From Bryoerythrophyllum caledonicum (taxonomy: Eukaryota; Streptophyta; Bryopsida; Pottiales; Pottiaceae), in assembly GCA_963971425.1 (NCBI GenBank), contig OZ020517.1, positions 26,802,668 to 26,866,667 on the forward strand: a stretch of 64,000 nucleotides of DNA, given 5' to 3'. Every line of letters starts with the position of its first letter. Within the stretch, counting starts at the first letter, position 1. The translations under genes were made by a program, and so were the position numbers. Shown here piece after piece: positions 34,554 to 58,002 of the stretch. Under the pieces are notes generated by a model that had not been told where the DNA came from, made no database searches, and saw only the letters and a program-made list of their open reading frames with translations.

Positions 34554-35499
34554 GTGCCTGCTGTCTCCTTAACTAACTAGTACTTGTAATTTGGAGGTTG
34601 AGAAAACTGCAAAGGAGGATGCTCTTGCTGTTTCATCACCGGCGGCAACTCCGGTTTCTCTAGACAATTCTGAAGAGGGTCAGGATGAGGATGAAGAGGG
34701 GCTTGGAGATAGAGATCCATATGAAGGGGATGAAGATGATATCAGGACCCGACAGAAACCTAATTCCGTTGCCACGATTTCTCGACTGAGAGTCCAACCC
34801 CTGAGTTCCTCAAGGTTCAATATTCCCTTATGCAGAATGCTGGCCATGCCTATGGTGAGGCCAACTCTCTCAAGTGATCTTGCTAAATTGGAGCAGGAGT
34901 TTGTCCATGGATATAGAGAGGGTGCCTCAGTATTTTATGTCACAATAACAGATGAAGAAGGCAAAACACATGAGGTGACTGAAGCTGATAAGGCATCATG
35001 GGATCCCATTTGGAGTGCCAAAAATGAAGAATTCAACTCCTTTCTTCTGTCCGTTCCAGTGTTAGCCAGTTTAAAAAATTTGATGTTCTTTATTTGTGAC
35101 GGGAACCATAGGCGGCAGGCTTGGTTGAATCATATTCAAAGACTTCACAAAACAGAAGAGGCTTGGCATTGTTTTGTGGATAGCATCCTCCTTGACACTA
35201 AGGGAAAAATTGGTGTTGTTATGCAAGTTATGCATAACATCAACAAGTAAGTATTCTCCATTATGTATTGCTTTTATCTATGCAAAGTACTTAAAATCTA
35301 CATTTATTATGATGTGCTTATCTTTACTCTATGATTGTTAATTGTAGACATACTGAAGACTCTCACGTCAAGACCAACACAGTTCACACACTATTCAGGG
35401 TGCTGAAGTATGGACTTATGCCGCTCGAACAGTACCAAGACATATTGATCCAGCGGAAATTAAAAGGTGCAAGAAATCTCAAAATGCGAAGACGACGTG
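34554..35499 (+). pseudogene. ParB-like domain exons of B
   Basis: The first exon opens with an acidic linker (EEGQDEDEEGLGDRDP) and then a region with RMLAMPMVRPTLSSDLAKLE. FFICDGNHRRQAWLNHIQRL follows, a clear ParB/Srx signature with Asp-Gly-Asn-His-Arg. After the intron at 35247-35347 the chain continues KHTEDSHVKTNTVHTLFRVL, like the helix after the ParB core. The exon is open apart from a TAA close to its 5' edge. ParB N-domains bind CTP and sit next to a palindrome-binding helix-turn-helix. I cannot see a canonical helix-turn-helix here. Confidence 0.6.
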
Positions 35500-36840
35500 G
35501 TATTTGTTAAATCTACATGTATTTACGAACTTCATCTTCCATGTATGTTCTCTAAAGTACTCACTCTGAATGACTAATTCCCGCAATTTTCATCTTAAAT
35601 TTTATTTCACATAAAGCAGGCTGCGGGTAAAGTCTTTGTCAATAAGTCTTTGTCAAAAACTGTTTTAGATCAGATTTGAGGTTTAGGCTAATTTATTCGG
35701 GTTGCACGGGGCTTAGTCAGGGTGCGTGATCAGAGCTTCTCTTCTGCGAACTAATTTGTTAAAACGTTGTAGTAGACTGTAGAGGAACCTAATGAACGTT
35801 GTAGCATTAGAATGGAAGAGGTCTGCTTGCAGGTTATGGACAGGCTTAGCGTGAGGACAATTGTCTTTACATATCACTGTACAGGCGTTGCCGGTAATCT
35901 GTTCGAGGGATCATACTTTCTTTTCTGAATCTTTATGCTAATCCGTAGACCTTCATCCCATCGAGCATATTGACAACTCGAGGTAATTGCTAGGACACAG
36001 TTGTAAGTCACTCTAGGTAATTGCTAGGACACAGTTGTAAGTCACTCTAGGTAATTGCTAGGATACATTTGCATGTCACTCTCGTTCACAGGTGCAAGTC
36101 ACTCTCGTTATCGAGACACATTGACACCCTTGTCAGTATTCTTGGATCTAAATAGGCTAAGATATTATCATGGATTTTATTACACATAAACCAAGCTAAG
36201 GCCAAGGTGAATAGATAAAGTCACACTTTTACGACGATCAGTTAATTCAGTATAGGTATAGTACCAAAGCAGGCGCGGTATAGTAAGTAGACAGAATGAA
36301 CATAATTTGGACGTGGAACTTCAAGGCTGCGTCAGCTATTAGTTCACCCAATCCATCGTGAGATTGTCCAAATTGCTAGGTTTCAAATCAATTCCCGACT
36401 CTCTCTCACTTTTCTTTTCCCAGTTGTTACAATCTTCTTTTCCCAATTGTTGTAGTCTTCTTTTCCCACAACTGAATTCAACCGCAAAATCTTAGAAGAG
36501 TCGTCATAGATATCTACAAGTTTGTGAGTCTAAGAAAGCCACAGAGGCCGGAATTCAGTACCTCAGAGTGTGATCAAAATCATGGTCATTGTGTACACCG
36601 CATCTGTACACTTCTTAGACAGTTGTAAGTGACTCTCGGTACCGAGACATAATTTGACGATATTCTTGTCTCCCGTGTTCGACAGCAGCAACTAGAATTT
36701 CAGTAGTACCTAGAATCTGGATCCGTAAGCTTAGCCGGGTAATTATCTTTTGCTGACAGACCAGGTTAACTATGCTCACAACCACTGATGGCTAACGGAT
36801 CACTCAGGTTTGGCTTCTCGGACTAAGCTACTCGGCTCAT
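35500..36840. other. B intron, left part
   Basis: It is non-coding. It contains the 34-bp tandem repeat listed separately and the perfect palindrome TCTCGGTACCGAGA at 36634-36647. A diverged site TCTCGTTATCGAGAC is near 36108. Confidence 0.6.
35979..36085. repeat. 34-bp tandem repeat, about three units
   Basis: AGGTAATTGCTAGGAC starts at 35981, 36015 and 36049 (one change in the last), and the units share the trailing GTAAGTCACTCT phrase. Confidence 0.8.
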
Positions 36841-38963
36841 TGTGAGCCAAATAAATCGCCCCTAAAGGGTGGCTTATCTTGAACACAAGATCCTAAACGA
36901 GGGCCTAGTTCCTTGTGTAACCAATCCTCAGCCCATTCATACACAACTTATACAAGCATGGTGACACATCTCATGTTCACTTAGGTCCCTTGTGGTTGAT
37001 TAGTGAGGTGGTGACTTAATCCAGCCTTTTGATTGAACCCACCTTTGAACAAGTGTAACTTTTGCTCTAGGGCTCCGAATGCAACGTTTCCAACTCTTAT
37101 GGGTTCAATTCAGCATTCCGAACTTGATTAGACCCTTAATGATCAGTTTCAGGCTTAGGTGTGACCCTGGAACCAGTTGGCAGCAGACAGGCTTCCCTAT
37201 TTTCTACAAACTTATAATCCTAATTATCTCCTTGACTCTAACTCCGATTCTTATGTTTGTTTTTTTGATTCTTATTAGTTTTTTGTGCTTAACGTGAGGG
37301 CAGCATTCAATCAACCATGCAACTCAATCATGAACTCATAACCAACGACCAGCAGTGCACACTCAACATATAAGTTTATTCAAGATCGTGCACCACATTC
37401 CTACGCATATACCACATCCATTCACACAAGAATCCACTCCAGCCTTACTAAGAATGAGCCTCCAGCTGCGTTCACTTACTAATGGCGTTTTAATCGATTG
37501 TTAAGTTGAATATATAGCAAACCCTAATTCTACCAAAAAATTGGCAGCGCTTCCGCGTGGTTTTTGTATTTAGAAAATTAGGTTTCACGTCATACACAAG
37601 GAATTTAAGAGGTCCGAGGGAGAAGAGGGGCTCCCTGATTTAATTCGGTTCACCCTCCATCCTTAGCCTTCAAACTGTTCACTCCAGCTCTTGTGACCTT
37701 GCTCCAGCTCGTGTGATCTTCTTCCTCTTGTTCGTCGTGTGATCTTGCTCCAGCTCGTGTGATCTTCTTCCTCTTGTTCGTCGTGTGATCTTGCTCCAGC
37801 TCATGTGATCTTCTTCCTCTTGTTCGTCGTGTGATCTTGCTCCAGCTCGTGTGATCTTCTTCCTCTTGTTCGTCGTGCTTGCTCACTCCAGCTCGTATCA
37901 TCTTCTTCCTCTTGTAGGCCGTGCTTGCTCACTCCAGCTCGTGTCATCTTCTTCCTCCTGTAGGTCGTGTTTGCTCACTCTAGCTCGTGTCATCTTCTTC
38001 CTCCTGTTCATCGTGCTTGCTCACTCCGGCTCGTGTGATCTCCTTCCTCCTGTAGGCTAACCTAATCTCGTTCACCAGTTCTGGGCCGGGGCTTCCGGCT
38101 CTCTCCCCACACAAATTCAGTCTCTCCCCTGTTCTCTCTCTCTTTCTACTCCTTGCACACTAACCGAATGAGACTTCTCCAGGGGGTAACCCCCCAACCT
38201 TTGCTCTCCTTGAGTTCTCAAAGAAGTTCCCTGCCGTTTTTGGCCTTCTTCCATAAATGGCTTCCTTCTTACAAAACCTACTAACCCTATGACTACTAAT
38301 TCCGTGCCACCCTTGCATTTAACAAGAGTGGGTGTCCCACTAACCAAGGAATATCTAAATCTAAACATTAACTCCATGCCACATGGGTGTGCATGATCTC
38401 AATAAGTGAGCTATTAGCTAATTTCCAAGGAGGCTAAATCTAATTTAATCTACCTAAATTGAATCCCCTTTGCTTGGGGTAATTCCTAATTTTACTTAGC
38501 GAGTGATGAGGGGGTTGTCCAAGCCTTTTGGACCTTTCCCACTATTTTTTTTTAAGGGCTTTTAAGCCTCTTCTTTTCATTTCTTCCCTTCACCATCATT
38601 TCTCTTCTTCCATTTTTTTGGTTTCGTGATTTCTTCATCGTGACCAATTGCGATCCACGACTTGGTAGGAGGTAAATTCTTCTCCATCACTATTAATTTT
38701 AATTTTTTTCTATTGTTTTTTGTCTTTTCTGTCTTTTCTTCATTTTTTCCTTTCTATTTTTATTTTTTTGGCTAACTACCTAAATTCCGCGATTGCCAAT
38801 AAGTGGTTCCTAGTTAAGGAATTAGCGCATGGAAGGCTATTTAGCTATTTTGATCAAAAGACCACGAGCTAACCAATAGGATAACCCATTTTCACCACTT
38901 ATTAGCCTTAATGGACCCGATGTGAGGTCCATTCATCACCGTGAGCCGTTTTTGCGGCTCACA
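36841..38963 (-). mobile_element. F2 element copy 1
   Basis: The ends are TGTGAGCCAAATAAATCGCC and CGGCTCACA, with TIR TGTGAGCC/GGCTCACA. Flanks CTCAT and CTCAC form a 5-bp duplication with one mismatch. The sequence is the reverse complement of F2 copy 2 (41083-43550) near both ends and around 37530-37570. A terminal hairpin GTGAGCCG/CGGCTCAC lies at 38941-38962. No protein is recognised. It resembles a single long terminal repeat and lies in an intron of B. Confidence 0.85.
37691..38060. repeat. 46-bp minisatellite in F2 copy 1
   Basis: GCTCCAGCTCGTGTGATCTT-type units start at 37701, 37747, 37793 and 37839, a 46-bp period. Variants continue to about 38060. Copy 2 of F2 does not have this array in expanded form. 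Confidence 0.85.
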
Positions 38964-39482
38964 CTCACGTAAAACGGTCTTCGTAGCACCGCTTGTGTTG
39001 TTTTCTGTTTTAGCCAAAATTCAAAAGTTCAGTCTCGGGACCGAGACATAGTCTGTACAGTACCTTTGGCGATCGAAATTTCAGCTCTGAGAGAATCTCC
39101 TGGTTCTCATCTATTTGAACATTTTATTGCTCTTGATCAAAGTCATCATTTTCTGACACTTCATATTAGAGTCGGACATTGATGCTTGGCGATCTGATGT
39201 TGATGCTTGCTAATGCGATTACTCATATAACTCTTATTTTGCGACATCTGGTACTAATGATTAAAGTTTGTATGGTATGGTTCAGTTATGTAGTTTGCAT
39301 GATAGTTTCGACTACTTCATATTAATGCTGCTATTTTACGTTTTTTTGAATGTTCTCCGATGCACTGATCGTGTACATTGTGAATACAGGGAATGTGATT
39401 CGAATAGGCTTCTGATATAGGCTACTAATACTTGTTAATCTCTATGTTTACTAACATGATCAAAATACCTTATGTGTTGCAG
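38964..39482. other. B intron, right part, with a palindrome
   Basis: It is non-coding. GTCTCGGGACCGAGAC lies at 39032-39047. The acceptor tgtgttgcag ends at 39482. Confidence 0.6.
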
Positions 39483-40413
39483 TTGTTTGATGACAAACTA
39501 ACTAAGGTAATCCCTTTGCAGCACGAACTCGGACTTGCTGCAGATGAGGGTGTTCGTCAACTTGTTGAGCAAACGGATGGAGAGGTGTGTATTGCTGAAA
39601 AAGCAGCTGCTATGAAGGTCGTTGCTTCAAAGAGAGCCGAGGCACTTCATAAGAAAATGTCAAAACTAGTTTGTGTGGCAAACCCAGAGTTGACAGAGGG
39701 ATGGCTTCGGGGGTATGTCCACTACTATAAGGCCCATTTTTCATCCTTCAAGTAATTTAATGAATTTCATGATTCTAATATATTGCTCTGTGGTTCACAA
39801 ATTGAGCGTCACTATACCCTTAACTCAATTACACCGGAGCTCAACTTAGAGAAATTGCAGTTGATCGCTACTGCAAAAGCATCAACCGCATTTAAAATCA
39901 AATGGTTGGAATATTTCAATTCCTCTGCATCAACACGTGAAGCCAGCAAACTGCCAACCAAGCCTACCAACGAGGAGAAATTACATGCATTCCTAGCCAA
40001 GGCATGTTTTTGGGCCGGAGTGAGTACATAACCCCCTATGTACCCTTTAGTTTTGTACGACTTGATTTGAGCAGTTACAGTAATTCTGTCTTGCTCTCGG
40101 TTTTTCTCACGGTCTTGTTCTTGGTCATCTTTTTGGTCTTGCTCACTATGATTTCATTCAATAAGTCGGTTATGTTCTCAGTCTTGTTCTCGGTCTTGCT
40201 CACTCTGATTTCAATAAATATGTCGGTTATGTTCTCAGTCTTGTTCTCGGCCTTGCTCACTCTGTTTCAGCAGATTTCCGATCAGACATCCATTCTCTTT
40301 GAAGACACTTTGCGCCAAGACAGACTAGCTACCAACTTTGAAATACCCAGCGAGCCCTTGACCTTGGCTGCATACATTGAGGACTGTAGTATGAAATTAT
40401 GGGACAATGCGTT
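39483..40413 (+). pseudogene. B exons upstream of the F1 insertion
   Basis: The first exon (39483-40019) reads from LFDDKLTKVIPLQHELGLAA, with a TAA at 39753 that leaves the frame unchanged, and continues to NEEKLHAFLAKACFWAG. It is alpha-helical and charged. The intron 40020-40270 contains tandem CTCGGTCTTG-type repeats. The next exon (40271 on) reads QISDQTSILFEDTLRQDRLA and reaches the F1 junction at DNAF, resuming at 46746 as PTFFRGQEAF. No domain is recognised in this middle region. Confidence 0.55.
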
Positions 40414-41082
40414 TGTTGCAGTTTGTAGAGTAAGTATTCCTTCGGATAACACTTAGTTGGAGCTAAATGTGCCCGGAATGGTCGCTCTAAATTCGTTCCC
40501 TCAGAGATCTATTGCTTCTTCTTGGAATGATAAGTAAGCTATATGCTATCCTTCTACCACACGCCAGTTAGCATTCCTATTCTACGCCTTATCTATTCAT
40601 CTGGATTCTTCCGGACGTCCGATGTGGTTTCCTACTATTTTCCGGATCCTTCCAACTTCCGGAAGGTCAGATGGAGTTTTTCTTCCGGAGTTTTTAAACG
40701 AGTGGCCGGGTACCACTGATCCTATTTGTGTAAGTGGCCGGATTCCCCACTGCCTTGTGACTTTAAGTGGCTAGACACCCACTCTCCCTATATTGCTAAT
40801 CGGTCGTTGGTTTGTTGTTTCCGGATGCACTCTCTCACATTATCCGGAAGGCCTTCCGGATACGGTCACTCAGAGGCTCACCCAGGCTACAACGACATTC
40901 TCGGGGATGATTAGTGGTTCGGTGAGGTGTGAAGGGTAGATCGGCATTTGGACTTCCTTCTAGACATACACCATAGGCTTTTCCATCTATCGTAAGGGGA
41001 AATTCCGATCGCAACCAGAATCCGGGTTCACACGGAGTCTCCGTGCCCTAGGAGCTACCAGGCCCACCACCTAAAGTACCCT

Positions 41083-43550
41083 TGTGAGCCCTAAAACGGG
41101 CTCACGATGTCATTTGGGCATTAATATTAACTAATTAGCATTAGGAAGTGGTAGTTAGGGTGAGGGGTGAAACTAAGCCACCTATTGTGGTTAAATGGCT
41201 CAAAAAGGCCCTTTATGTGCCATTTCCCAATTTAGAGGGAGGTCATCATCCCCAATTGGGAATTTAATCTTGTTAAAAAACAAAAAATAAATAAAAAAAT
41301 AAAAATAAAAAATAAAAAACTTAGAAGACGAAAGGAGTTCTTGCAAAAAAGGGAGACACCTCAAACTCCATGTGTTTTTAACACAATGGGAGGAAGCCTT
41401 GGGAAAAAACAAAACAAAAAACCAAAGAGGTAAGTAGACAATTAAGTAATCAAATAGACAAAAAACAAAAGTAAACAAAACTCGGAGTGTAGCCATGATG
41501 TGGCCACTCTTGTAGTTAATCTTTTAAAAACCCATGCACAAAGTAGTGGCACATGGCCTTGGAAGAAATTAGAAAAGTTAGATGGTGACGAGGAGAGAAA
41601 TTAGCACCAATTATTGGCGATCATGGGCTGCCCTTAATGGCATGCCTGAAGTTATCTTTAAAAATCCTTTTTATTTTTGCTTTCTTCCTTCCCCCGAGCT
41701 GGCTCGGGGGAATTTTGGGTTTTCCTAGGGAATATTCCCTGGAATCTGCTGAAGAAACGCTGGACTTCCAGCGTGAGTTGCGTGCGCGGCTGCCGTGGGA
41801 GCTGGAGGGCGCTGGGTTGACTGCGGACAGGGAGTTTTCGGGCTCTCTCGTTTTTTGGTGTGTAGAGTTTTTTTTTAGGGTTGTGTGGGAGTGCCGCGAT
41901 CAGGAGAGGGGAGCTGCCGGAACGGCTGTCTCTCTGCGTTTTTTTGAGGGAGCGAGATCAGCAGAGAGGGAGCGAGATCAGTAGAGAGGAAGCGAGATCA
42001 GCAGAGAGGAAGCAAGATCAGCAGCGATGGAGTGAGGCGAGCAGTTCGAGCGAGAGCGGTGGCGACGGCGACGGCGGGGGCAATTCGGCGTGACGTACCT
42101 GTGCACGCCAGCAAGAGCAGGCAGGTGTGGATGGTGCTTGAGCACCGAAGGATGAGCGCTCGATTATGAGAGAGGAGCTGCCGGAGGGTGTGATTGACCC
42201 CACAGGAGCGCCGGTCGAAGAGATTGGTGTGGACAGGAGGCCGGAAGAGTACGGCATCGGCGTGAGCGGAAGGAGCGCGGCTGCGAGCAAGGGGAGCCGG
42301 CACGCGCGCAAGGACGGACGAGTCGACGATGGCGATGGCGACGAGGAACTCCAGGCTCGAGAGCTTGATGGAGTTCTCTTCGAAGTAGATCTGCGTTTTG
42401 GGGCTACGGTGAAGGCTGAATCGATTCCTGGATCGTAGAGAGGAAGGACCCTGCGACATCGGGGTTGAGGAGAAGCGGAGTCCAGTTCGTTTAGGAGATC
42501 CAGGCTGCAGCATTGGTGGATCGGCTGCGAGATCATTCCGGCCAGCCACCAGGGAGCTCTCATTCTCCCACTTAATTCTCATGCATGTGATGGTACTTGG
42601 AAGTGCAAGTGGGAATCCTTGGGTGCAGTAGGTGTTAAAAATTCTGGTGATTGAATCCCGCGCGGAAGCGCTGCCAAAAGTTGGTAAGAACTAGGTCTTC
42701 TTGAGTCAAGGCACACACTCGCCAGCTGCGTGATATCCAACCTCATTCGGTGGAAGCTAGTGAATGAAGAAGTGAGCTTGTATGCGAATATGCATGGTTG
42801 CATGAAGTTTGAACACAAGGTCATGATTGTTGAGATCTGCTGGTCATGTGAATGGTGAATGCAGTCCGTCCCTGATTATAGTGATCGAGTCGATACAAAA
42901 ATCTGACCCAAATTTTCAGTAGCTTACCAAGTTAATCATCTTGAATTAGTAAGGTTAGGCTGGAGAAATTCCGAAATTGAGTAAAAACACAAGAAGTTCT
43001 TCACGTTGGAAGTTCTGGAGTTCTGGAAGGGTCTGCGATCTGTCTGCTGGTCGTCGGGCTGTGGGTCCAGGATTGAGTCAACCGGTTAATTGGAGGCTGC
43101 CATCGTGTTAAGCAAGAAAAACTAATAAGACTACAAAAAACAAACGTCAAAAACGGAGTCATAATCACAAAGATAATGAAGAATTAAACTTAATATAAAA
43201 AGAGGAGCCTGTCAGCTGGACGCTACTATCAGGGTCGCACTTGGGCCTGGAATTGGTGGTTAAGGTGCTAATCAAGTTCACAAGGTGGAGTTGAACCTAA
43301 TAGAGCCAAAAAACGTTGGAAACGGAGCTTGGAGGCAAAGTTTATGCTTGTTAAAAAAAAATCGGGTTTAATTTAAGGCTGAATCTAGCCATCACAGCTC
43401 TGATCATTAACGAACCTTCTTAAGTGACACACCGTGGTTCATCATGCTTGTATGAATGGTTGAAGGATGCTTGAACAAGGGTTGTATCCCACATGTAGGG
43501 TATTGTGTTCAAGATAAACCACCCCATTAGGGCGGTTTATTTGGCTCACA
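41083..43550 (+). mobile_element. F2 element copy 2, nested in F1
   Basis: The ends are TGTGAGCCCTAAAACGGG and TTGGCTCACA, flanked by a perfect 5-bp duplication ACCCT (41078-41082 and 43551-43555). A terminal hairpin GTGAGCCC/GGGCTCAC is at 41084-41105. A short GAGCGAGATCAGCAGAGAG repeat lies at about 41945-42020. The open frames across 41637-42600 on both strands show no recognised motif and disagree with copy 1, so I do not call a gene. The hairpin end here matches the 3' end of copy 1, which is inverted. Confidence 0.92.
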
Positions 43551-44115
43551 ACCCTCCCTCCCCCTCCAGGCTTCTTCCGGTCACCAAGGATCGTCAGACT
43601 CTATCTAACCTCTCCTTCAGCTGTTCCGGGCGCTCTCCCACAGCAAGTCCCAACCGGTTAGACTAGATGCTTATCTGTGAACCACTTCAGCTTCCACAAC
43701 TATTCCTCTAATCATCAACCACAATGGGCCCTATCCTTCATTCACAAAACGATATATGCCAACATAATTTCAAGACGAGAAAGTATACTAACAGCAAATA
43801 TCATTCGGGAGGAAGAAGAAAAAAGACCCTGAGCCAGCTACGGCTCCCGTCTCAAGAGCCCGCTACCACTGATCTAAAAACGGATCTAAGAAGCTAAAAA
43901 TCCGGAAAATCCTATCCTAAAAGTGAAAGGGATATTATCCCTAGAAATCCGGAATTCAAACTTAGATTCGAAAGTTTCGGATCTGAGATCCGGTTTCTAC
44001 GGATCTATCTCAAAAACTAAAAAAAATTGTCTTTAGTCTTACCGCATGATAGCCGGGTGCAAACTTGAGCCCCATCGTTAATCGCTATCAGACTTTTAGC
44101 CCTAAAGATTCTAAT

Positions 44116-46329
44116 CTACGGGGTTACTTGGTTCCGCCTCCGACTGCTATGGCGTGAAGGGGTAACCTCTGCTGGAGCGGTGCCGGCCTCGGTTTGCGCC
44201 GGAATGGCTGCTGGTGGCTCTGGTGAGGTGGTCGGCGTCGGCATACCTGGTCCGGATGGTGCATCCGGGTCCTCTGTTGTGACCGCCTGGCCGGATGGTG
44301 CATTTGCACGGTCTTCAACGTCCGGAAGGTCCCGGAAGCTACCGCTGGGGCTGACCACCATGGGTGTCGCTGCCGAGCTTCCGGGTAAAGGGTCCGTCAC
44401 TGGTGGCCCTGGAGAGGGAGACTCTGAGGGAATTCGGAAGGGCAAGGGTGGTACTGCCTGACTCCCTGGCACCTGTTCCCACTTCTACATACTCTCCGTG
44501 CTTAGGAAGGCCACCCCATTCCAACTCATAGGAAAGTTGAAATCCGACGTTCCCACGAGATCATTGAACTGTCTGGTGAGTGACTTCACTGTTCCAGATG
44601 CAGGTCTGGGTGAAGAGCCGGCCGGAGGTTGGGTAGGAGAAGCAGCTGCCGGACCGGATGGGGATCCGGACGGGCCTGCAGTGGTTCCGGACGGATCTGC
44701 CTGGGTTCCGGATGGTCCCGCAGCGTCTGGAGCAGGTGGTGCCAGAACTGGAGGGGGAGCTACTGGTACTGTTGAGGTGGCCGCCACGAGATCCCTTGCT
44801 AGCTCCTGCATCTTGGACCAGGTGCTCTCCATTTTCCGGCTGTGATCCACCAGGAACCGGATCACCTGCCCCCTGTTGAGCTTCTCGTTCTTCTCCGAGC
44901 TCGCTGTGTAGAGTAATGCCCGGTTAACCGTATCCACCGGGAAATCCAGCGCTGTGCAGATATCGGTCAGTGTCTGTGAAGTTGCCCGGACCTTCGTTTC
45001 TGCCACCACTCGGGCATGTTGTGCTGCATCCCGTGCGGCTTCCGCCTGCCGGACCTGACCCCAGAGCCGGGTGTTAACCTTGGTTATGGTGGCGTTCTCC
45101 TGCTCCAGTCTTGTGACGGAATCGTGCTTCTCGTTCATCTCTTTGAGCTGGGCGATGAGGTGAGTGGTGTCCTCCAGTCCGACTGCCTCTAGGATGGCCA
45201 TAATCATGGCATGCCTCTCCCGGATCTCTCCTTCCTGGATCCTGGTCCTCCAGACAATATGTCTGCAGAGCTCGTGGACGTCCACGGGAATGTCGCCAAT
45301 GATGCTTGGGACAAACGTCGGTCCCGGCTTTGATCCGGTCGCGAATCGTTCGTCTTCTGGGGCCGATTCCGGTGCGGTTGGCTGCGCTGCGGTTGGTGGT
45401 GCTACGGGTGGGCTCTGCGCCGGGATTGTTGACAACGGCCGGCATGCTCCCGGGGTCTCCGGAGTCCTCTGCACCGAACGACTCCGCTTCCGGTTCGGTC
45501 TTCGAAGTATGAGGGGGGATGACGACTTCTCCGTGTCAGAGTCCGTCGATTCATCCAGTTCCTCATCTATTTCCATCCCTCCGTATGACTGGATGGTGAG
45601 CAGGCTATCGTACTCGGCCTGCTCATCCGGACCCAACATCTTCTGCTTGGCGTACATGTGAGCCAGGTAGATGGAAAGCGGGGATGGGGTTTTCCGGGCT
45701 TTCGGCAGGTTCTTCACCATCCTATCAATCTGCTCGTCCATGATGGCCGCCCAGTCGACGGACAGCTTCCCTCTCATCGAGCCCATGATCAGTGTTGCTA
45801 GCTTGGCCACTATCCGTTTCGGTTTCTCGGGATGGAAAATAGGGTTGAAGAATGCCATTACTAACCTGGCGTCCGGATCGGTGAGGTCGCTGAGGACATA
45901 CCCGTCTTTAGGGTTAGCCTTCGCGGGGAATTCGCCCTTCAGGATGGCGTCGTCACGTTCCGCCACCTTGATTGTTCCTGCCCGGAACTCGTAGGTGTCT
46001 CTCCAGAGTGCCGTGGTCCAGACCTCCGGATGCGCCCTAATCTTTTGCGCGTATTGGCTTGGTGGTTCTCCCAGGAGCTCCGTCATCATCGTTTCGCTCT
46101 GGAAGGCCCACGGTGTCGCTAGAAGACCTTCACAACCCATGATCTCGAGGTAGCTCTCTAAAACCCGGTAGGTCTTGACCGGCTTCGGAATCTCCGGAGT
46201 CACCTTCTGCAGCACCAGTGTTTCGGTAGCCGGAGCCTTGCCCTTCTTGCCCGCCATCCGTGCCCACCTCTCCGTGAACTTGCGCCTCGCAATGTTGTCA
46301 AGAAATCCTGCACGCACTGTCCTTACCAA
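44116..46329 (-). pseudogene. F1 copy 2 gag-like coiled-coil protein, one in-frame stop
   Basis: The frame is 738 codons from MVRTVRAGFLDNIARRKFTE to SSRRRNQVTP, broken only by a TAG after AFLSTESM. F1 copy 1 has Gln there, so the stop is a Gln-codon change. Residues 1-230 form a conserved block (LESYLEIMGC, RAHPEVWTTALW, NPIFHPEKPKRIVAKL, LSIYLAHMYAKQKML). An acidic linker near 260 (DEELDESTDSDTEKS) precedes a coiled coil near 360-440 (RLEQENATITKVNTRLW). A helix FPVDTVNRALLYTASSEKNE and a Pro/Gly/Ser-rich tail follow. Position and size suggest a gag-like or DNA-binding element protein. The family is unknown to me. It has no zinc knuckle. Confidence 0.75.
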
Positions 46330-46745
46330 GTCCCTCTTGCTAACCTAATTTGGCTCTACCGTCCTTCACCAAGACCGGATTCGAAACCCTAAGAGAATGC
46401 GAAGAGTGGAAAGAGAATGAGCCTGGTGGAAACCCTAAAAGATTGGTGCACAGGGCTGCCAGTCGCGTTTTGTATCCGACGCACTTGTACGGAAAACCGT
46501 TATGCGTCATGATGGCATTTCCGGGTCCGGCTGTAACCGTCCTCCGGTTTTGCAACTTCCGGGAAGGGTGCTGTAACTACCTTCATTAGGAATTCCGGCG
46601 CAGCACTAAAATCTTATTCCGTTCTATGAACTACTTATGCTCATATGGCCGACTAACTAACTAATTTTTCTAATTTTTTTCCTTATTTTCTTCCGGATTT
46701 GGTATTAAGTTCCGGAAGTATGTGGGAACAGCTTCCCACAGCGTT

Positions 46746-47654
46746 CCCCACCTTCTTCCGAGGGCAGGAGGCTTTTAACAAAACTCTCGAATTTGTGGGT
46801 TTTAATGGGACTGACTTGATTGTGCGAAGAGTACTCTTTCGGTGAGTTTTCTCCTTTAACTACTATTATTCTTATATTTGGCATAGTGATTTGGTTTTTC
46901 ACATGACAGGTATTCCTATTGCAAGGTATATAATGATAAGCTGTTTTTTACCCGCAGGTATTTCAAGTACGAGCTCATTGCAAAAGGAGCAATAACAAAA
47001 GAAGATCTCCCCATATTTCTCTCTATATGGCTTGACAGATCGAACTCAACGTGCATGTTCTCAACAAATCAACAGCGGACTTGGTCAACCTCACATCTCA
47101 CAGGAGGTGGATGGTACCTCGACTGTGCTCCTAGTTTCACTCCTTCCTTTGAAACTGAACTTAGGAAGTCAAGGGAGGCAGTTGGAGAATCTGGTGTTGA
47201 GATGGTTGATTTACAGGGCATAGAAGACGAGCACGAGAGGGCAAAGGCCCTCTCGCAACGTCTAGAAGAAGATAGGAAGAAAGCGTTTAGGGTGAAAGAA
47301 GCAGAGGAGAAAGCGGCCCAAAAAGAGATGGAGAAACTCCAGAAGTCTCTGGAAAAGACTAACAGGAGGGGGAAAAAGAAGATGAACTCCCCTCCAGAGC
47401 CAGAAGGTAAGAGCCCACCTGCGCCTAGTCCTACTTATGACTCTGGTTCTCATGCTCCAACTCAGTCTAGAGGAACCAAATGCAATTCCTCCTACGAGCA
47501 GTGAAGCCAAGGAATCCCTGTTTTCACATCGGCTGAGGAGCATGATGGCCAAGTTGGGGAGTAGATTAAAAACTTCTCACTAGAGGAAGTCCTTGGTGGC
47601 GAAACGGGCAGCTTGAGTCCACTATTTGACGAGTTAAAGAGCTTCATTTCCAAG
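46746..47654 (+). pseudogene. B exons downstream of the F1 insertion
   Basis: The exon 46746-46841 ends at a gtgagt donor. The exon 46958-47654 opens YFKYELIAKGAITKEDLP. A region with HLTGGGWYLDCAPSF follows, and then a strong charged coiled coil (RLEEDRKKAFRVKEAEEKAA) and a Lys/Pro-rich linker. TGA at 47502 and TAG near 47562 are the only breaks, and the frame continues to a gtacta donor at 47655. The coiled coil suggests a dimer. Confidence 0.55.
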
Positions 47655-48419
47655 GTACTACCCTGTTCAACTGCTTTGCTTTGTTGAAGATTTAATTTTA
47701 TTATATTTTCGAAGATGCGCAGTCTGTACCGTTAGTTGTCAAGTCCAATGACCTTACTGAACCTCGTGATGCTCGAATCAAGCCAACCAACTCTAAAATA
47801 TATTCAGAATTTGAGTCATAATAGTCAGCAATTCATGAGCAAGTCCAATGTGATCAGTTCTGAACTACATTCTAGATGTGTCAGTTTCGAAGCTCGCAGT
47901 TTGAGTTTCGGGTTCAGAGACCTTAAATTTGTGGACTGTTTTTTTTTATTGATTTTTTGCGATAATTGATTCTGAATCGGGTTAATAGACTTGCTGCAAT
48001 ATGGACCTGAGCCAATCAGATCAAGTTCTACCCTCACGCCTGTAATCTGTTGTATTAAATCTAATCGAATTTCCTTTGTCAAGTCTTAGTCAAATTCAGT
48101 AGCCATTTTAGTTGGGCAGTTTCCATTTTAGCTGTTTATCTATCAGAACAAAACTTGGCTTTATCTTTATATTTGAGAGATTAGTTTTCATTGCTTGGTG
48201 TTTAAAATTGTTGTACATATGAGCCCCTGTTTGGTAGAATTTTTGACTACTTCCTTAAGTCATTAACCAGTTTCTTACTGCTGACATGTGGTTTATTTGA
48301 TTACAATTGATGATTTTCTTCTTTTAATATTTTATAGCTCCAAGTCATGTAATTTGTGCATGCTTTTAAAGATTTGTCTAAGTTTTTTCACGCTCTCAAT
48401 ATTGCTTATTCATGCATAG
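47655..48419. other. B intron or inter-exon region
   Basis: A short possible exon (about 47713-47820) reads DAQSVPLVVKSNDLTEPRDA before two stops. The rest is AT-rich with nothing recognised. Confidence 0.4.
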
Positions 48420-48767
48420 CACTCAAGTGTCAAAGCCCGACGATATAAGGGATCTGCTGCGAAAGTACCCTGTGTGGACTTGATTCTTGCAGATCTTCCA
48501 GAGGGCCTTCTTGTTCGAGGAATTTTGAATCCACCTTCGTTTGTTCCCGCCTGGAACATAGAATCTGAAGATTGGTTTCAAACAATCTTTGATTTCGTAG
48601 ACCATCACTTCCAAGACGATGGGGCGATAATTTTGTTCCATCCTTTTTGAATGACTACAAAGTCAAACATTCTTGGATACTCTTCCACGTATGGATTTGC
48701 TGTTCGCAAGGAGTGGTGGGGGATGAACAAGCTTCACCTGACGTCCCCAATTAATCATGCCTTGACT
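48420..48767 (+). pseudogene. B exon with methyltransferase motif IV-like ADLPEG
   Basis: The frame reads KARRYKGSAAKVPCVDLILA, then ADLPEGLLVRGILNPPSF, then a helix (WFQTIFDFVDHHF) and strand (DGAIILFHPF). A TGA at 48648 is followed in the same frame by TKSNILGYSSTYGFAVRKEW and a gtgagt donor at 48768. VDLILADLPEG matches the position of the catalytic (D/N/S)PP(Y/F/W) motif of amino-methyltransferases, with Leu and Glu in place of the usual residues. This may mean loss of activity. The strand-helix-strand pattern after it fits the family. Confidence 0.5.
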
Positions 48768-48889
48768 GTGAGTTCATTTTATGATATGACTTATTGCTAA
48801 TTTGATTGACAGATGTATCTATGTTATGTTACGTTAGCTATCCCACATATTTTATGCCATGCAAACTATGTGCACGCGGATGTCCATTA
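48768..48889. other. B intron up to the hAT insertion
   Basis: The gtgagt donor opens the intron at 48768. Nothing else is recognised before the hAT target duplication. Confidence 0.5.
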
Positions 48890-49089
48890 CTCGGTATCAG
48901 GATTGTCATACTGGACAGACGTCCGGTACGCCCGTCCGGTAGAGCTCTCGCCCGTCCGGGTAAGTCAACTGAGGGTTGACTTACCCGCTAGGTAAAAAAC
49001 AGGCGACGTGGCAGCCACGTATGAACTAAAGTGATGCCACGTAGGATATAAACTAAAAAAATGAATAATTGACTACATAAAATAATATA

Positions 49090-49735
49090 TTGGCCGCAAA
49101 GACGTCTCCGCCCCTAATAAGTAGGGGCGGGGACGTCACCGCCCCTAAATGGTAGGGGCGGAGACGTCCCCGCCCCCAAATGGTAGGGGCGGAGACGTCA
49201 CCGCCCCTCCCCGCCCAATTTAGGAATCAGGATCTTTGAACGGCCATATCTCACTCAAAAATAGTCCAAATTAAGCGTGTGATATGCTTTTTGGCATCTA
49301 CGAAAAATTTAGATGCCAAATCACACCTCAAACGCTTGATTTGGGCTATTTTTGAGTGAGTTATACCCATTCAAACATTTTGACTCCAAATTTAGGCGGG
49401 GAAGGGGCGGGGACGTTAGGGGCGGGGACGTCTCCGCCCCTTAATGGTAGGGGCGGAGACGTCCCCGCCCCTAAATGGCAGGGGCGGAGACGTCACCGCC
49501 CCTCCCCGCCCAATTTTGGAATCAGGATCTTTGAGAGGCCATATCTCACTCAAAAATAGTCCAAATCAAGCGTGTGATATGTTTTTGGCATCTACGCAAA
49601 ATTTAGATGTCGAATCACACCTCAAACGCTTGATTTGGCCTATTTTGGAGTGAGTTATGTCCATTCAAACATTCTAACTCCAAATTTAGGCGGGGAAGGG
49701 GCGGGGACGTTAGGGGCGGGGACGTGAGGGCGAGG
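49090..49735. repeat. Palindromic GC-rich satellite, GGGGCGGAGACGTCYCCGCCCC core (left)
   Basis: There are two units of about 300 bp. Each has a cluster of GGGGCGG-GGACGT-CCGCCCC palindromes and an AT-rich segment with inverted phrases (CAAATCAAGCG and CGCTTGATTTG). Further units lie at 52485-53340 (three) and 55165-55447 (one). Confidence 0.85.
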
Positions 49736-50265
49736 ACTCAACCCTTTGAAGGTTGTAGAGGAACAAAGTTGGGCAAACTCCATTCTCGCCTTGGCAAAGG
49801 CCTTCCTCCTTCCCATGCGTTAGAGAAACGATATTTTTAATGTAAATTTAGTTTTCCTTTCAACTTCTAGGGAATGACATGATTGCCGTGATGATTAGGG
49901 AATGCAAAGATCTTGTCGAAACCAAATATAGTGACTTTTTGTTCTAAATGATTCTATTGGACTTGAAGTAGGAGAAGACGAAGAACTACGGTCTTCCAAT
50001 GGGACCGGCGTAAATGTAGTGTTTGTTCATTCTCTTCACTAAGCATATGGCCACGGGACATAGGCTAGTGTATAAAGAACTACTTTCCCCTCTCGAGGGT
50101 CAACACTTTTCCACACTAAGTGCTTCCCTACACTAATTGCATTAAAGATAACCAACATGTCATCTCCCCCAAGGGCTTTGTGGGTTCCCATACAACGAGG
50201 CCGTGGGATCTTCCACCATAATTGGGTGGACTATGGTGGTACTTGAATTAGAATGTTGTATTACG

Positions 50266-50493
50266 CTATAAACAACAAATTCTATTTTTCATTTTCAAAG
50301 AAGGTAATATTCTTTGCACAAGTGAAACCTCATTTATTATCGACGGACAAATACCATTGAGCAATGTAGTTTTAATGTAAAGATGTGTTCTTAAATGACT
50401 CATCTTGAGGTCATATTCAGATTTATGAAGCATAATGTCGAATCGTCCAATGTGTAACAACCCCTTTGGAACAATCCACGAATTACTCTTCAT
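50266..50493 (-). CDS. 75-codon frame duplicated in the hAT arms, doubtful
   Basis: The frame MKSNSWIVPKGLLHIGRFDI is identical in the right arm at 54402-54629 (+), because the arms are inverted copies. The third copy near 51750 carries differences and stops. No motif is recognised. The identity shows only that the arms are recent copies, so coding is unproven. Confidence 0.15.
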   Translation of the reverse strand: MKSNSWIVPKGLLHIGRFDIMLHKSEYDLKMSHLRTHLYIKTTLLNGICPSIINEVSLVQRILPSLKMKNRICCL

Positions 50494-52484
50494 AACCGTA
50501 GGGTCGATGAAATATCTATCTTTAAATTGTTGGGGTTATGATAATTTATCCCTTTATTCAATCATAAAGAAAGATGATGCAAATAAAAGCATTCTCTAAA
50601 GGCCACAATGTTTCAAAGTCGAAGTAGTTCTCTCACTACACTTCTTACTAAATGGTGTCAATTTAACTTTAAATTGATTAAACCTTGCAAAGGTTAGATG
50701 AAACTCCAAAAGGCTTTGCAACTAAGGGTGACACCTCAAAAGGTCACATTAAGCATGTCTATTGTAAAAGCAATGGATGTAGGGGAGAGACACACGACCA
50801 AATGTTTTTTAGTATACATATAGATGTACAAAAAATATAAATGTCAATAGAAGCTCTAGTAAAATTTCTAGCAATATAGGACATAACTATCAACTTCTTT
50901 CTTGAACTCATGTCTGTATACAATAACGATAGAACTTTGTATGGTTTGCATGAAATTCTTTTCCTAAATAAATATAATTTTGAGGTTGTGATGTACTATA
51001 CATATGCCGTATTTATAAATTGGGAATGTCAATTTCTATATGTTGAAATGGAAACTATTACATTTCCTCTAACACGTGCAAACTATTTGTATGTTCCTTA
51101 CCTTTTGGTTTATCTTTCCATGCCCCTTCTTAACATTGGATTCAATTGTAGAATACTTATATATAAAGCGTATTACCTTCTTCTAAGATTCCAAAAAAAA
51201 GTATTTTCTTTGTTGTTAAAATACATTTTAATCCAAGTAGAGCACGTTTACACTTTTTGGGGAAGTTGGAAAAAAAAGTAATCTCGTAGGGGCCCCTAGC
51301 ATAAATTGTAGAAACGACGTACGATAACGAAATAGGGGCAAATATATTCACTTAGGATAAATTTTATAAAGAAAGTACATGAAACATACATTGCTTTAAA
51401 AGTGTGAAATATGGTTATAAATAATATATAAATAGATATAATATCAAAGAACTATGTAATTGATACAAACAAAATATCATGGAATGAATAGGTACAAAAT
51501 TTGAATGGTAGATTATACTGATTTGTGTTCTCACTATTTCTCAATGGATGAAAAGGGAGTATTTATTGTGGAGCACTCATGCAACATTTTATTGTTGGAT
51601 AAGTTGTACATTTCCTCCGTGGTTAGAAGTTTACATGAGCCCTTATGTTTGGGGATATATATATTTCTCTCTCATTGCATGTTTAAAAAATTCGTTTGTA
51701 AAGTTAAGTTGAGTAATTCCTTTGTAAAGTAAAGTTGAAGGGTTGTTTCACAAGGGAAATATAGACATTGGACGATTCGATATTATGCTTCATAAATTTG
51801 AATATGACCTCAAGATGAGTCATTTAAGAACACATCTTTACATTAAAACTACATTGCTCAATGGTATTTTTCCGTCGATAATAAAGGAGGTTTCACTTGT
51901 GTAAAGAATATTACCTTCTTTGAAAATATCAAAAAGAATTTGTTGTTTATAGCATAACACAACATTCTAATTCAAGTACCACCATAGTCCGTCCAATTAT
52001 GGTGGAAGATCCCACGGCCTCGTTGTATGGGGACCCACAAAGCCCTTGGAGGAGATGACATGTCGGTTATCTTTAATGCAATTAGTGTAGGGAAGCACTT
52101 AGTGTGGAAAAGTGTTTACCCTCAAGAGAGGAAGTTAGTTCTATACACACTAGCCTATGTCCCGTGGCCATATGCTTAGTGAAGAGAATGAACGAACATT
52201 ACATTCACGGCGGTCCCATTGGAAGACCGTAGTTCTTCTTCTTCTCCTAATTCAAGTCCAATGGAGGAAAAAAACGCTATATTTGGTTCCGACAAGATCT
52301 TTGCATTCCCCAATCATCACGGCAATCATGTCATTCCCTAGAAGTTGAAAGGAAAACTAAATTTACATTAAAAATATCGTTTCTCTAACGCATGGGAAGG
52401 AGGAAGGCCTTTGCCAAGGCGAGAATGGAGTTTGCCCAACTTTGTTCCTCTACAACCTTCAAAGGGTTGAGTCCTCGCCCTCAC

Positions 52485-53340
52485 GTCCCCGCCCCTAACG
52501 TCCCCGCCCCTTCCCCGCCTAAATTTGGATTTAGAATGTTTGAATGGGCATAACTCACTCAAAAATAGTCCAAATCAAGCGTTTGAGGTGTGATTTAACA
52601 TCTAAATTTTGCGTAAATGCCAAAAAACATATCACACGCTTGATTTGGACTATTTTTGAGTGAGATATGGCCTCTCAAAGATCCTGATTCCAAAATTGGG
52701 CGGGGAGGGGCGGTGACGTCTCCGCCCCTGCCATTTAGGGGCGGGGATGTCTCCGCCCCTACCATTAAGGGGCGGAGACGTCCCCGCCCCTTCCCCGCCT
52801 AAATTTTGGAGTCAGAATGTTTGAATGGGCATAACTCACTCAAAAATAGCTCAAATCAAGCGTTTGAGGTGTGATTTGACATCCAAATTTTGCGTAGATG
52901 CCAAAAAACATATCACATGCTCGATTTGGACTATATTTGAGTGAGATATGGCCGTTCAAAGATCCTGATTCCTAAATTGGGCGGGGAGGGGCGGTGACGT
53001 CTCCGCCCCTGCCATTTAGGGGCGGGGACGTCTCCGCCCCTACCATTTTGGGGCGGAGACGTCCCCGCCCCTAACATCCCCGCCCCTTCCCCGCCTAAAT
53101 TTGGAGTCAGAATATTTGAATGGGCATGACTCACTCAAAAATAGCTCAAATCAAGCGTTTGAGGTGTGATTTGACATCCAAATTTTGCGTAGATGCCAAA
53201 AAACATATCACACGCTTGATTTGGACTATTTTTGAGTGAGATATGGCCGTTCAAAGATCCTGATTCCTAAATTGGGCGGGGAGGGGCGGTGACGTCTCCG
53301 CCCCTACCATTTAGGGGCGAGGACGTGAGGGGGGGGGACG
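52485..53340. repeat. Palindromic GC-rich satellite, central block
   Basis: There are three units of about 290-300 bp with the same GGGGCGG/GACGTC palindromes as the left block and the same inverted AT-rich segment. It lies on the plus orientation of the right arm. Confidence 0.85.
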
Positions 53341-53839
53341 TTGTGGACTCAATCGGGTGAGGGTTGTAGAAGAGCAAAGTTTGGCAAATCTCATTCTTGC
53401 CTTCGCAATGGCCTTCCTCCTTCCCATGCGTTGGACGAACCATTTAAAGCAAATAACCGCTTTATTTGGTTTCGACAAGATCTTTGCATTCCTCAATCAT
53501 CACGGCAATTATGTCCTTCCCGAGAAATTGGAAGGAAAACTAAATTTACAATAACGTAAGGGAAGATGGAAGGCCTTTGCCAAGGCGAGAATGGGGTTTG
53601 CCCAACTTTGTTCCTCTACAACCTTCAAAGGGTTGAGTCCCCACCCTCACGTCTCGACCCCAAACGTCCCGGTCCCTTCTCCGCCTAATTTTGGAATCAA
53701 AAAGTTTGCACGTGTTAGAGAACAAAAGTGAAACCATTTAACATCGATGTAAAAATAAATCCTCTATGTTCCAAATATAATACATATATAAAGAGCAACA
53801 AATATTAAAAATGAAATATAATAGGTTCCATTTGAACAT

Positions 53840-55447
53840 AAAGAAATTAACATTCCCAATTTATAAATACAGCATGTATATATATATATATATATATCTT
53901 ACAAAACAACGTCAAAATTATATTTATTTAGGAAAAGAATTTCATACAAACCATACAAAGTTCTATCATTATTGTATATAGACATGAGTTCAAGAAAGAA
54001 GTTGATAGTTATGTCCTATATTGCTAGAAATTTTACTAGAGCTTCTATTGACATTTATATTTTTTGTACATCTATATGTATACTAAAAAACATTTGGTCG
54101 TGTGTCTCTCCCCTACATCCATTGCTTTTACAATAGACATGCTTAATGTGACCTTTTGAAGTGTCACCCTTAGTTGCAAAGCCTTTTGGAGTTTCATCTA
54201 ACCTTTGCAAGGTTTAATCAATTTAAAGTTAAATTGACACCATTTAGTAAGAAGTGTAGTGAGAGAACTACTTCGACTTTGAAACATTGTGGCCTTTAGA
54301 GAATGCTTTTATTTGCATCATCTTTCTTTATGATTGAATAAAGGGATAAATTATCATAACCCCAACAATTTAAAGATAGATATTTCATCGACCCTACGGT
54401 TATGAAGAGTAATTCGTGGATTGTTCCAAAGGGGTTGTTACACATTGGACGATTCGACATTATGCTTCATAAATCTGAATATGACCTCAAGATGAGTCAT
54501 TTAAGAACACATCTTTACATTAAAACTACATTGCTCAATGGTATTTGTCCGTCGATAATAAATGAGGTTTCACTTGTGCAAAGAATATTACCTTCTTTGA
54601 AAATGAAAAATAGAATTTGTTGTTTATAGCGTAATACAACATTCTAATTCAAGTACTACCATAGTCCACCCAATTATGGTGGAAGATCCCACGGCCTCGT
54701 TGTATGGGAACCCACATAGCCCTTGGGGGAGATGACATGTTGATTATCTTTAATGCAATTAGTGTAGGGAAGCACTTAGTGTGGAAAAGTGTTTACCCTC
54801 AAGAGAGGAAGTTAGTTCTATACACACTAGCCTATGTCCCGTGGCCATATGCTTAGTGAAGAGAATGAACGAACACTACATTCACGGCGGTCCCATTGGA
54901 AGACCGTATTTCTTCTTCTTCTCCTACTTCGAGTCCAATAGAATCATTTAGAACAAAAAGTCACTATATTTGGTTTCGACAAGATCTTTGCATTCCCCAA
55001 TCATCACGGCAATCATGTCATTCCCTAGAAGTTGAAAGGAAAACTAAATTTACATTAAAAATATCGTTTCTCTAACGCATGGGAAGGAGGAAGGCCTTTG
55101 CCAAGGCGAGAATGGAGTTTGCCTAACTTTGTTCCTCTACAACCTTCAAAGGGTTGAGTCCTCGCCCTCACGTCCCCGCCCCTAACGTCCCCGCCCCTTC
55201 CCCGCCTAAATTTGGATTTAGAATGTTTGAATGGGCATAACTCACTCCAAAATAGGCCAAATCAAGCGTTTGAGGTGTGATTTGACATCTAAATTTTGCG
55301 TAGATGCCAAAAAACATATCACACGCTTGATTTGGACTATTTTTGAGTGAGATATGGCCGTTCAAAGATCCTGATTCCAAAATTGGGCGGGGAGGGGCGG
55401 TGACGTCTCCGCTCCTACCATTTGGGGGCGGGGACGTCTCCGCCCTA
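53840..55447. repeat. Right arm of the internal inverted duplication of the hAT element
   Basis: It is the reverse complement of the left arm over most of its length. Its satellite part is one unit, against two in the left arm. A TA-dinucleotide run lies near 53877-53896. Confidence 0.8.
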
Positions 55448-55635
55448 GTGCCACGGTGGCGTGACACGTCCGTATGTGACGTGGCGATCATAGTTAAAAT
55501 TTCTTACTTGCAAAAAATTACTGGGCGCTCTTCGGGCAATTCGTCCGAAGCGTCCGTCCGTGCTGTCAGGACCGCCCGTCCGGTTGTTCCGTCCGATCAC
55601 CTCAACCCGTCCGTTATGACAACCCTGCTCGGTAT

Positions 55636-56099
55636 ATACTGCAATTAATTATTTATAATCACATTTTCTTGTAGCCATGATTAGTTATAATGTGGATTAG
55701 TGATAATATGTGCTGCTGTGATAGTATGTGATGGAATATGAATGCCGTGGCTGATTTTCTAACTATGTGCACACCATAGTTGACAATCAGACAGCTTGTT
55801 TAAATTCGAGTCTGTGATAGTATGTGCCACTGATGGCTGTCTTTTATCTATGTACATGCAATGGCTGGATAATGAGTATGTGCATGCTAGTCGTTGTACT
55901 TGTCGTTGAAATTTGACTAGGCCCTGGCTGATGTTACATCCGGTTGTAGCGAATTGGCTGAGACGGAATTCGAGATAGCCACGGCAGTTTTAGAGATCCA
56001 GTTTGTGAAACTAATCTTCCATTTCATTTGCTGGAATGTGCTTAATGATTTTTATCTTCTTTTGTAAGTAAACTAATTCACTGTTTTTGTAATCAGCAG
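55636..56099. other. B intron, right of the hAT insertion
   Basis: The sequence is AT-rich and holds no recognised exon apart from the acceptor near 56096-56099. Confidence 0.4.
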
Positions 56100-57074
56100 A
56101 CCATGAGGTTTGGGATAACCTTAGTTGTGAGGAGCATTCCGAAGGTGTCTGCTTCCAGATTTTGCTTTCAACACATCCCTGTACTAGACCGTCACCGGGT
56201 TGATGTGGCACGGGATGACATCCTCCAGAACTTGGTGTCAAGGGAGGATCAGTTAATGGATGGATCCACCCCATGGCGTGGTCCTCGTGAAAAATCCGTC
56301 GTCCTTATGCCGATGCTCATTCATGCATCTTCTTCGCCAGGGGATATTGTTCTAGACTGCTCTACAGCTACGAGTACGTTTAACATCTCTTCTTGTTTAA
56401 ATAAGTAATTGTTGACCATTTCATGTTAATTAATTTTTATGGTGTTTGAAAATTGAACTTCATTGTTTTCTTATTTTCGAGGAGCTTCTATTCATGCGTG
56501 CGGCAATGTGAACCGTCACATTGCGGCATTAGAGGCTGATAAGGCAATTTTTGAAGCCTTGATCGCTCCTCTAATTCGATCTGCTCTTGCCATAGAAGTG
56601 AAATCAAGAGATGGTGTCATCTCAGAGGATCCAGATAGCAAAGTCATTGTTGTTCAGAAGATCGTGAAGAAGTCAAGGTTTAGTAAGTGAGTATAGCTAC
56701 AATTTCTACTACTAGTGTTATCTTTTCTGATTTGCTTTTATATGTAGCGGTTTTATGAACATGTTGCCATTTGCATTTGCAGAAGCGGTAATTTGAGTTA
56801 CCCTATTCACCACCCTTTTTTTTGTGACCCTAAGTTCTATCCAAGCCCTCCAAAGTCCTCGCAACTCCCTTCATACGCAAATGACGTTGCCAATGAATTA
56901 GCGGAAGGTTCATATCGTACATTTAGACCTAAGAAGTTGATGCTAAGAGGTATAGAGTATGTTGATTTAGAAGCTGTTGAGTCTGAGGATGAAGGCTCCT
57001 TAGATGCAGATAGTACAGATTCTAAAGTCCTTGTAGCAACATCTGATAATTGTGATTTCGATTATATGACTTAG
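56100..57074 (+). pseudogene. B exons: methyltransferase C-terminal block and acidic tail
   Basis: Exon 56100-56373 reads FGITLVVRSIPKVSASRFCF, then GPREKSVVLMPMLIHASS and SPGDIVLDCSTAT. Exon 56482-56687 reads ASIHACGNVNRHIAALEADK. Exon 56783-57074 reads NLSYPIHHPFFCDPKF, then an acidic tail ending CDFDYMT. EKSVVL and PGDIVLDCSTAT followed by ALEADKAIFEAL match the end of N6/N4 methyltransferases (EKPVALM..., GDxVLDPFAGSG, GIEIDxxY). The usual FxGxG is replaced by CSTAT, so cofactor binding may be lost. The start of the first exon is uncertain because two nearby acceptors exist. Confidence 0.6.
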
Positions 57075-57785: not shown

Positions 57786-57972
57786 TTGCACTATCTATTT
57801 TGTATTATAATAATTATACCCTCGCATTCTGAAATTTCCCCCAAGTGCCTGAACCACGGATATAGGCATGATTTTTTCCCTAAAAAATTGAATTATATTC
57901 AAAATAACTACCAAAACCATGGTCATAGGATATGCTTCACGAGACAGCAATTTCCAAAATTACAGAAAAGTT

Positions 57973-58002
57973 ACCGCTCACCGATCACCGCTCACCGCTC
58001 AC
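57973..58002. repeat. ACCGCTC-type terminal repeat at the left of A2
   Basis: ACCGCTCACCGATCACCGCT (continuing CACCGCTCAC) is the inverse of the terminal repeat beside A1. The A-family TIR therefore faces inward here on the left side. Confidence 0.6.

Follow-up and report, generated by a model that had tools for sequence, protein, structure and literature searches.

The window analyzed here is a 64,000-nucleotide stretch (C4:26802668-26866667) of the 437-Mb Bryoerythrophyllum caledonicum assembly, and it contains a gene that joins a ParB-type domain to an N6/N4-type DNA methyltransferase (MTase) domain. We consider this gene likely to be the accessory gene, here in a degenerate copy, of an abundant two-gene, cut-and-paste-type DNA transposon, with a non-catalytic MTase in the clade to which the window copy belongs. 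Sequence and fold comparisons predict a protein of ~1,100 aa in which a middle region separates a ParB/sulfiredoxin-fold domain at the N terminus from a permuted N6/N4-type DNA-methyltransferase domain at the C terminus. A preliminary description of this DNA had proposed a mobile, intron-containing eukaryotic gene with these two domains in a plant-lineage genome, and the present results support that proposal.

All four peptides quoted in that description were located on the plus strand of the window: the ParB-type peptide FFICDGNHRRQAW at 35086-35124, VDLILADLPEG (motif IV position) at 48474-48506, EKSVVLMPML at 56289-56318 and SPGDIVLD at 56334-56357. Compact genomic copies carry these pieces in the order seen in the window; their DNA identity to it is ~91-94% in most coding pieces and 80-90% in the stretches that separate them, and the same exons were recovered in divergent copies by spliced alignment. 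Together with the pairing of exons across the genome and the annotation of a single 1147-aa protein in Ceratodon purpureus, this collinearity assigns the motif sites to one gene and rejects two separate genes for the ParB and MTase exons. The earlier claim of one spliced frame over 22 kb thus stands as regards one gene with introns. It does not stand as regards the frame and the length, since the window copy is broken and most of the 22 kb is DNA of other elements nested in the gene; introns as the sole cause of the span were rejected. The pieces of the gene in the window, and the DNA inserted among them, are as follows.

31542-31730, plus strand: probable first coding exon of the ParB-MTase gene (MITRSRARADREV...), inferred by eye, 3' end approximate
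34603-35246, plus strand: ParB-fold exon with DGNHRRQAW
35348-35542, plus strand: exon next after the ParB exon, frameshifted
36813-38963: intron stretch found in none of the compact copies compared, limits approximate
39522-39716, plus strand: middle-region exon
39807-40019, plus strand: middle-region exon
40274-40413, plus strand: split exon, part 1
40414-46740: 6.3-kb element inside the split exon, with TG...CA ends and GCGTT on both sides
46742-46841, plus strand: split exon, part 2
46958-47654, plus strand: long middle exon, two in-frame stops in the window copy
48420-48767, plus strand: MTase exon with DLILADLPEG at the motif IV position, one in-frame stop in the window copy
48846-55997: nested 7.2-kb stretch with many inverted repeats, not in compact copy A
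56100-56373, plus strand: MTase exon, motif X / motif I region (WRGPREK...SPGDIVLDCSTAT)
56482-56686, plus strand: MTase exon downstream of motif I (SIHACGNVNRHIAALE)
56783-57074, plus strand: final exon, including the stop codon

The probable first exon resembles the MVETRAVRR... start shared by the Ceratodon protein (P0001) and genomic copy L064. With three in-frame stops, one frameshift and a 6.3-kb insertion splitting an exon, the window copy is a pseudogene, and it is through these lesions that it is a relic. The 6.3-kb element opens with TGTTGCAGTT, and a very similar stretch lies near window position 6925; its identity as an LTR retrotransposon was considered and dropped, as no repeat was found within the insertion. 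The nested stretch at 48846-55997 is filled with repeats in direct and inverted orientation, with identities reaching 97% and one inverted pair of 1.6 kb, and is foldback-like.

In relatives without stop codons the gene measures ~4-7 kb and encodes ~1,050-1,150 aa. For copy L041, a splice model placed by hand has ten GT-AG exons and encodes 1100 aa. A purpose-written spliced aligner, used on the divergent copies, recovered ten matching exons and no stop in L040, L044 and L045, nine exons with two stops in L043, and eleven with one stop in copy A; L031 (two stops) and L032 were aligned only in part, as was L042, from which some introns are absent. MAFFT alignments A4-A6 misplaced short exons and were excluded. 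Ratios of nonsynonymous to synonymous substitution (dN/dS) were 0.29-0.35 among copies A, L031 and L032, which represent the window's subfamily. The A-L041 pair gave 0.08, at a dS of 3.4, and three more pairs were dS-saturated.

Domain assignment was made largely through these relatives. Pfam searches of the window exons gave a weak MTase trace (15.1 bits to PF01555 for the motif I exon alone, under the curated cut-off of 26.7) and no ParBc, and the claim of two joined domains was therefore tested via other copies. PF01555 matches P0001 at 30.4 bits, above the cut-off, and four of the five members of alignment A1 at E values up to 1 (best 9.7e-9); a CcrM-type beta-class MTase gave a profile match across the whole domain (E 7.2e-9). 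ParBc (PF02195) matched none of seven members of alignment A2, even with E values as high as 10 allowed, nor the window exon at E up to 1. Fold comparison places this exon in the ParB/sulfiredoxin superfamily, with CTP-bound ParB as the closest fold, and the motif DGNHRxxAW is retained in all eight aligned rows that have the ParB exon. An AlphaFold model of the whole Ceratodon protein reached a pLDDT of 38 and was discarded. The preliminary description had looked to confident matches to both PF02195 and PF01555 with an intact catalytic motif; PF01555 was found, PF02195 and the intact motif were not, and the ParB part comes from fold comparison.

The properties of the ParB fold bear on a reading in which it acts as a nucleotide-dependent clamp or as a nicking domain that prepares the element's ends, with the MTase fold providing sequence recognition. 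We regard this as rather unlikely. The nuclease activity of ParB folds is debated, which counts against it. The similarity to CTP-bound ParB and the full retention of DGNHRxxAW argue in its favor, as does the DNA nicking by the ParB domain of the bacterial ParB-methylase Bce_0392 (PMC5512222).

Motif IV was read in 26 sequences (the window, genome copies and P0001) that were hand-chosen and include many close relatives, namely the window with L031-L035 and seven DxPF loci; L060 gave no reading. The canonical tetrad (D/N/S)PP(Y/F/W) occurs in none of the 26. DxPE or a variant without the aromatic residue (for example DLPE, NLPE, DIPE, DMPD, DMLD, DCQE, DVPK or DIPN) is present in 18, comprising the window, L031-L035, L040-L045 and L065-L070. 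The remaining eight, which form the Ceratodon clade, have D(Q/T)PF (L056, L057, L058, L059, L061, L062, L063 and P0001), L058 being the same locus as L064. In nine aligned rows the FxGxG loop of motif I is found in none and is replaced by an ASTG-like D-x-x-(A/V/T)-(S/A/G)-T-G, and all nine retain the glutamate that closes the AdoMet-binding strand. A PF01555 search of this genome returned eight scored matches, all to the motif X/I exon, and the seven that were read further are of the Ceratodon type.

As far as these sequences allow it to be judged, the motif IV change is family-wide and not a feature of one relic. The earlier description had taken the altered catalytic residues as a sign that this copy is a relic of an active family. 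That view finds no support here: motif IV is altered throughout the clade, the stop-free copies L040, L041, L044 and L045 included, and is therefore not the mark of a single relic. In the window's clade the aromatic residue is gone, yet dN/dS is below 1, and the most likely role of the MTase fold in that clade is a non-catalytic one.

An opposing interpretation is that the protein is an active MTase that adds N6-methyladenine (6mA) or N4-methylcytosine (4mC) to the element's own DNA, for protection, as a mark for the transposase or for evading host silencing, with DxPE as an unusual active site. We consider this unlikely. The above-threshold PF01555 match of P0001, the D-x-P-F of P0001 and seven loci, and the invariant glutamate speak for it, as does the similarity of DxPF to the NLPY found in active rRNA adenine methylases. 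The absence of the canonical tetrad from every sequence read, with the aromatic residue missing in 18, and the ASTG-like loop in all rows speak against it. Also in its favor, epigenetic self-modification has been proposed by the authors describing an Ectocarpus transposon (PMC12477816); also against it, changing SPPY to APPA in the bdelloid enzyme N4CMT abolishes activity (PMC8885841).

The transposon that carries the gene was delimited by comparison with two other copies. Copies A (C10) and B (C6) are 97-98.5% alike in long matched pieces between inverted ends, with no match outside. Both ends (GGACGAAGCTATTTT... and GGGAAAAGCTATTTA...) run on into GGTGAGC repeats, and the copies are flanked by 10-bp target duplications, AGTAATGTAC for copy A and GCTCTATGCT for copy B. 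Copy A contains all pieces of the gene without large insertions and has a compact length of ~15.6 kb. The window element (14234-58017) is 43.8 kb long because other DNA is nested inside it, at 16.6-24.2, 25.4-29.3, 30.7-31.2, ~36.8-39.0, 40.4-46.7 and 48.8-56.0 kb. Its remaining features, outside the gene itself, are listed below.

14224-14233: left target-site duplication ATGTGGCGTC, 9/10 equal to its right partner
14234-14285, plus strand: left terminal inverted repeat, GGACGAAGCTATTTTGCGAGC then GGTGAGC repeats, inner limit approximate
14967-16353, minus strand: transposase C-terminal part, two open reading frames (ORFs) with a CxCx21CxH SWIM-like pattern seen by eye
16579-24180: nested DNA missing from compact copy A, a gap between the matches of A and the window
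24193-25401, minus strand: transposase DDE-like middle part, ORFs 24193-24648 and 24649-25209, broken here and open in other copies
25402-29312: nested DNA missing from compact copy A
29589-30170, minus strand: transposase N-terminal part
57971-58017, minus strand: right terminal inverted repeat, ending ...GCTCACTAAATAGCTTTTCCC, inner limit approximate
58018-58027: right target-site duplication ATGTGTCGTC

The transposase gene thus lies on the minus strand, opposite the plus-strand ParB-MTase gene, and this arrangement recurs. Opposite the gene of the divergent L040 lies the transposase L046, whose N-terminal and DDE-like parts share one 736-aa open frame; in L044 with L047, the N-terminal part of the transposase is seen. 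Five copies taken with their flanks (L031-L035) match the window in the same order over all the sequence that they cover.

Co-location was quantified genome-wide with coordinates hand-copied from the match tables. The copy lists comprise the best 150 of 1775 (ParB exon), 1303 (motif-IV exon) and 2058 (transposase) candidates, and the pairing counts are therefore lower bounds. The ParB exon has matches at no fewer than 150 places (at least 150), with identities from 100% down to 43%, and by our own count about two thirds of the best 150 have no stop in that exon. A motif-IV exon lies 1-25 kb downstream, on the same strand and in the expected order, for 57 of the 150 ParB matches, as compared with 0/150 in each of two control arrangements. 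For 40 of the 150, a transposase match is found no more than 30 kb upstream and on the opposite strand (controls 1 and 1, shifted lists 0-2). From the other side, a ParB or MTase match in divergent orientation lies no farther than 35 kb from 61 of the 150 transposase matches.

These data weigh on the possibility that a captured host or bacterial gene is carried as passive, Pack-MULE-like cargo with no function for the element. Captured genes are frequent in transposons, which counts for it, and Pack-MULEs are named in PMC12477816. Against it stand intron places that are equal in L040, L041, L044 and L045 despite 32-44% identity, the position of the gene next to the right end in five of six divergent copies (right-end repeats follow it in L040, L041, L043, L044 and L045, not in L042), its placement opposite the same transposase, a dN/dS of ~0.3 in one subfamily and the presence of the gene in Ceratodon. 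We consider passive carriage highly improbable.

A DDE-like core and, toward the end of the transposase, a CxCx21CxH pattern were read by eye, the latter in copy A and L046; the SWIM zinc finger (CxCxnCxH) is present in many, not all, clades of Mutator-like elements (MULEs). The transposase had no Pfam match (SWIM and PF10551 included), no NCBIfam match and no meaningful PDB sequence match, and when very thin profiles were used to compare it by hhalign with MULE proteins of this genome that carry PF10551, the scores hardly differed from those of shuffles and lent no support. The 10-bp duplication, found in three of three elements together with inverted ends, fits Mutator-like elements, which are defined by target duplications of 8-11 bp (PMC6446971). 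MULE transposases with PF10551 matches occur at 138 places in the genome, one of them just left of the window (C4:26798877).

Outside this genome, a homology search of 5.8 billion proteins with the L041 protein returned a sole relative, P0001, the 1147-aa protein M758_1G295400 of Ceratodon purpureus, which aligns over 84% at 31% identity (E 4.5e-123), and a profile search with the full-length protein again found only P0001. A ParB-exon profile search, in which only exon-sized ORFs were admitted, found 883 proteins with E values of 1e-3 or less; among the 120 matches listed, ENA, JGI and 'lgn' are the main sources. A single viral-contig scan, the sole look at a viral origin, yielded 69 pattern matches with none confirmed. 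Within the genome, L064 (C3:3862001-3872000) is a stop-free, Ceratodon-type DxPF copy that begins MVETRAVRR and is 57% identical to P0001. Its spliced alignment has ten segments, including one doubtful 15-base exon, and lacks three introns of the window's clade; the 10 kb examined contain no transposase match and no GGTGAGC-type ends. Ceratodon-type copies similar to L064 are found on several chromosomes. The L064-type copies suggest a second mobile clade.

The combination of ParB and MTase domains in transposons has already been reported from brown, green and red algae. The Ectocarpus giant transposon Sola1-1_Ec32 encodes such an accessory protein of 1104 aa opposite its transposase (PMC12477816), and the same source cites similar proteins in green and red algal transposons (Iyer 2011; Petroll 2025, Bostrychia). 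By description, the moss protein is like that of Sola1-1_Ec32 in both domains, in length (~1,100 aa), in facing a transposase and in belonging to a large DNA transposon. It differs in its moss host, its 15.6-kb element with a 10-bp duplication, its SWIM-like transposase and the motif IV change in 26 of 26 sequences. The bacterial and phage fusions exemplified by Bce_0392 likewise pair a ParB-type domain with an amino-methyltransferase (PMC5512222), whereas the moss protein is far longer, with a middle region of ~450-500 aa, introns and a changed motif IV. In comparison with CcrM-type MTases, DPPY is replaced by DxPE or DxPF and the FxGxG loop is lost. Bdelloid N4CMT and the Marchantia 4mC MTase are also amino-MTases of bacterial origin in eukaryotes; N4CMT has SPPY and adds 4mC, and the Marchantia enzyme is described as having no extra domains (PMC8885841). 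The moss protein, unlike them, is transposon-borne and carries a ParB fold. Among the matches listed, no report of a ParB-MTase transposon protein in land plants was found in the open-licence literature. VANC proteins are not known to be ParB or MTase proteins. The likeness to Arabidopsis VANDAL elements, whose VANC proteins are anti-silencing factors, lies in a second transposon protein that acts on the element's own sequence (PMC5735166, PMC10398659).

Common to the main readings is a transposon-encoded, DNA-binding accessory protein that would act on the element's own DNA. In the reading we prefer, a non-catalytic accessory protein, the ParB domain would bind that DNA, most likely at the GGTGAGC-repeat ends as candidate sites, and the protein would help the element to move or to stay unsilenced. 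The MTase domain of the window's clade would hold DNA or bind a partner, and residual methylation may occur in the DxPF clade. A bolder version, which we think improbable, is a large radiation of transposon-borne pseudo-methyltransferases, retained under selection once the catalytic tetrad had gone, in which a ParB clamp sits on GGTGAGC arrays and a dead MTase fold occupies or reads the DNA, shielding it from host methylation or guiding the transposase. These findings extend ParB-MTase transposon proteins from algae to the moss lineage, with a named relative in Ceratodon. The coexistence of DxPF and DxPE clades in one genome makes it testable whether such proteins modify transposon DNA or only bind it through the MTase fold.

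Three further observations concern the rest of the window. A second ORF cluster on the plus strand at 4461-6838, especially 4875-5345, has a ParB-like signature (IIGGQHCMAAHRVL) by eye, with no Pfam match over the cut-off; it may be another ParB-type mobile gene. A 256-aa ORF at 59156-59926 on the plus strand (VVLDLNGFLIQR...) is FCP1/NIF-type phosphatase-like by eye only. Near-identical 176-aa ORFs (MSNWRVFMESQ...) lie at 11504-12034 and 61005-61535, one on each side of the transposon.
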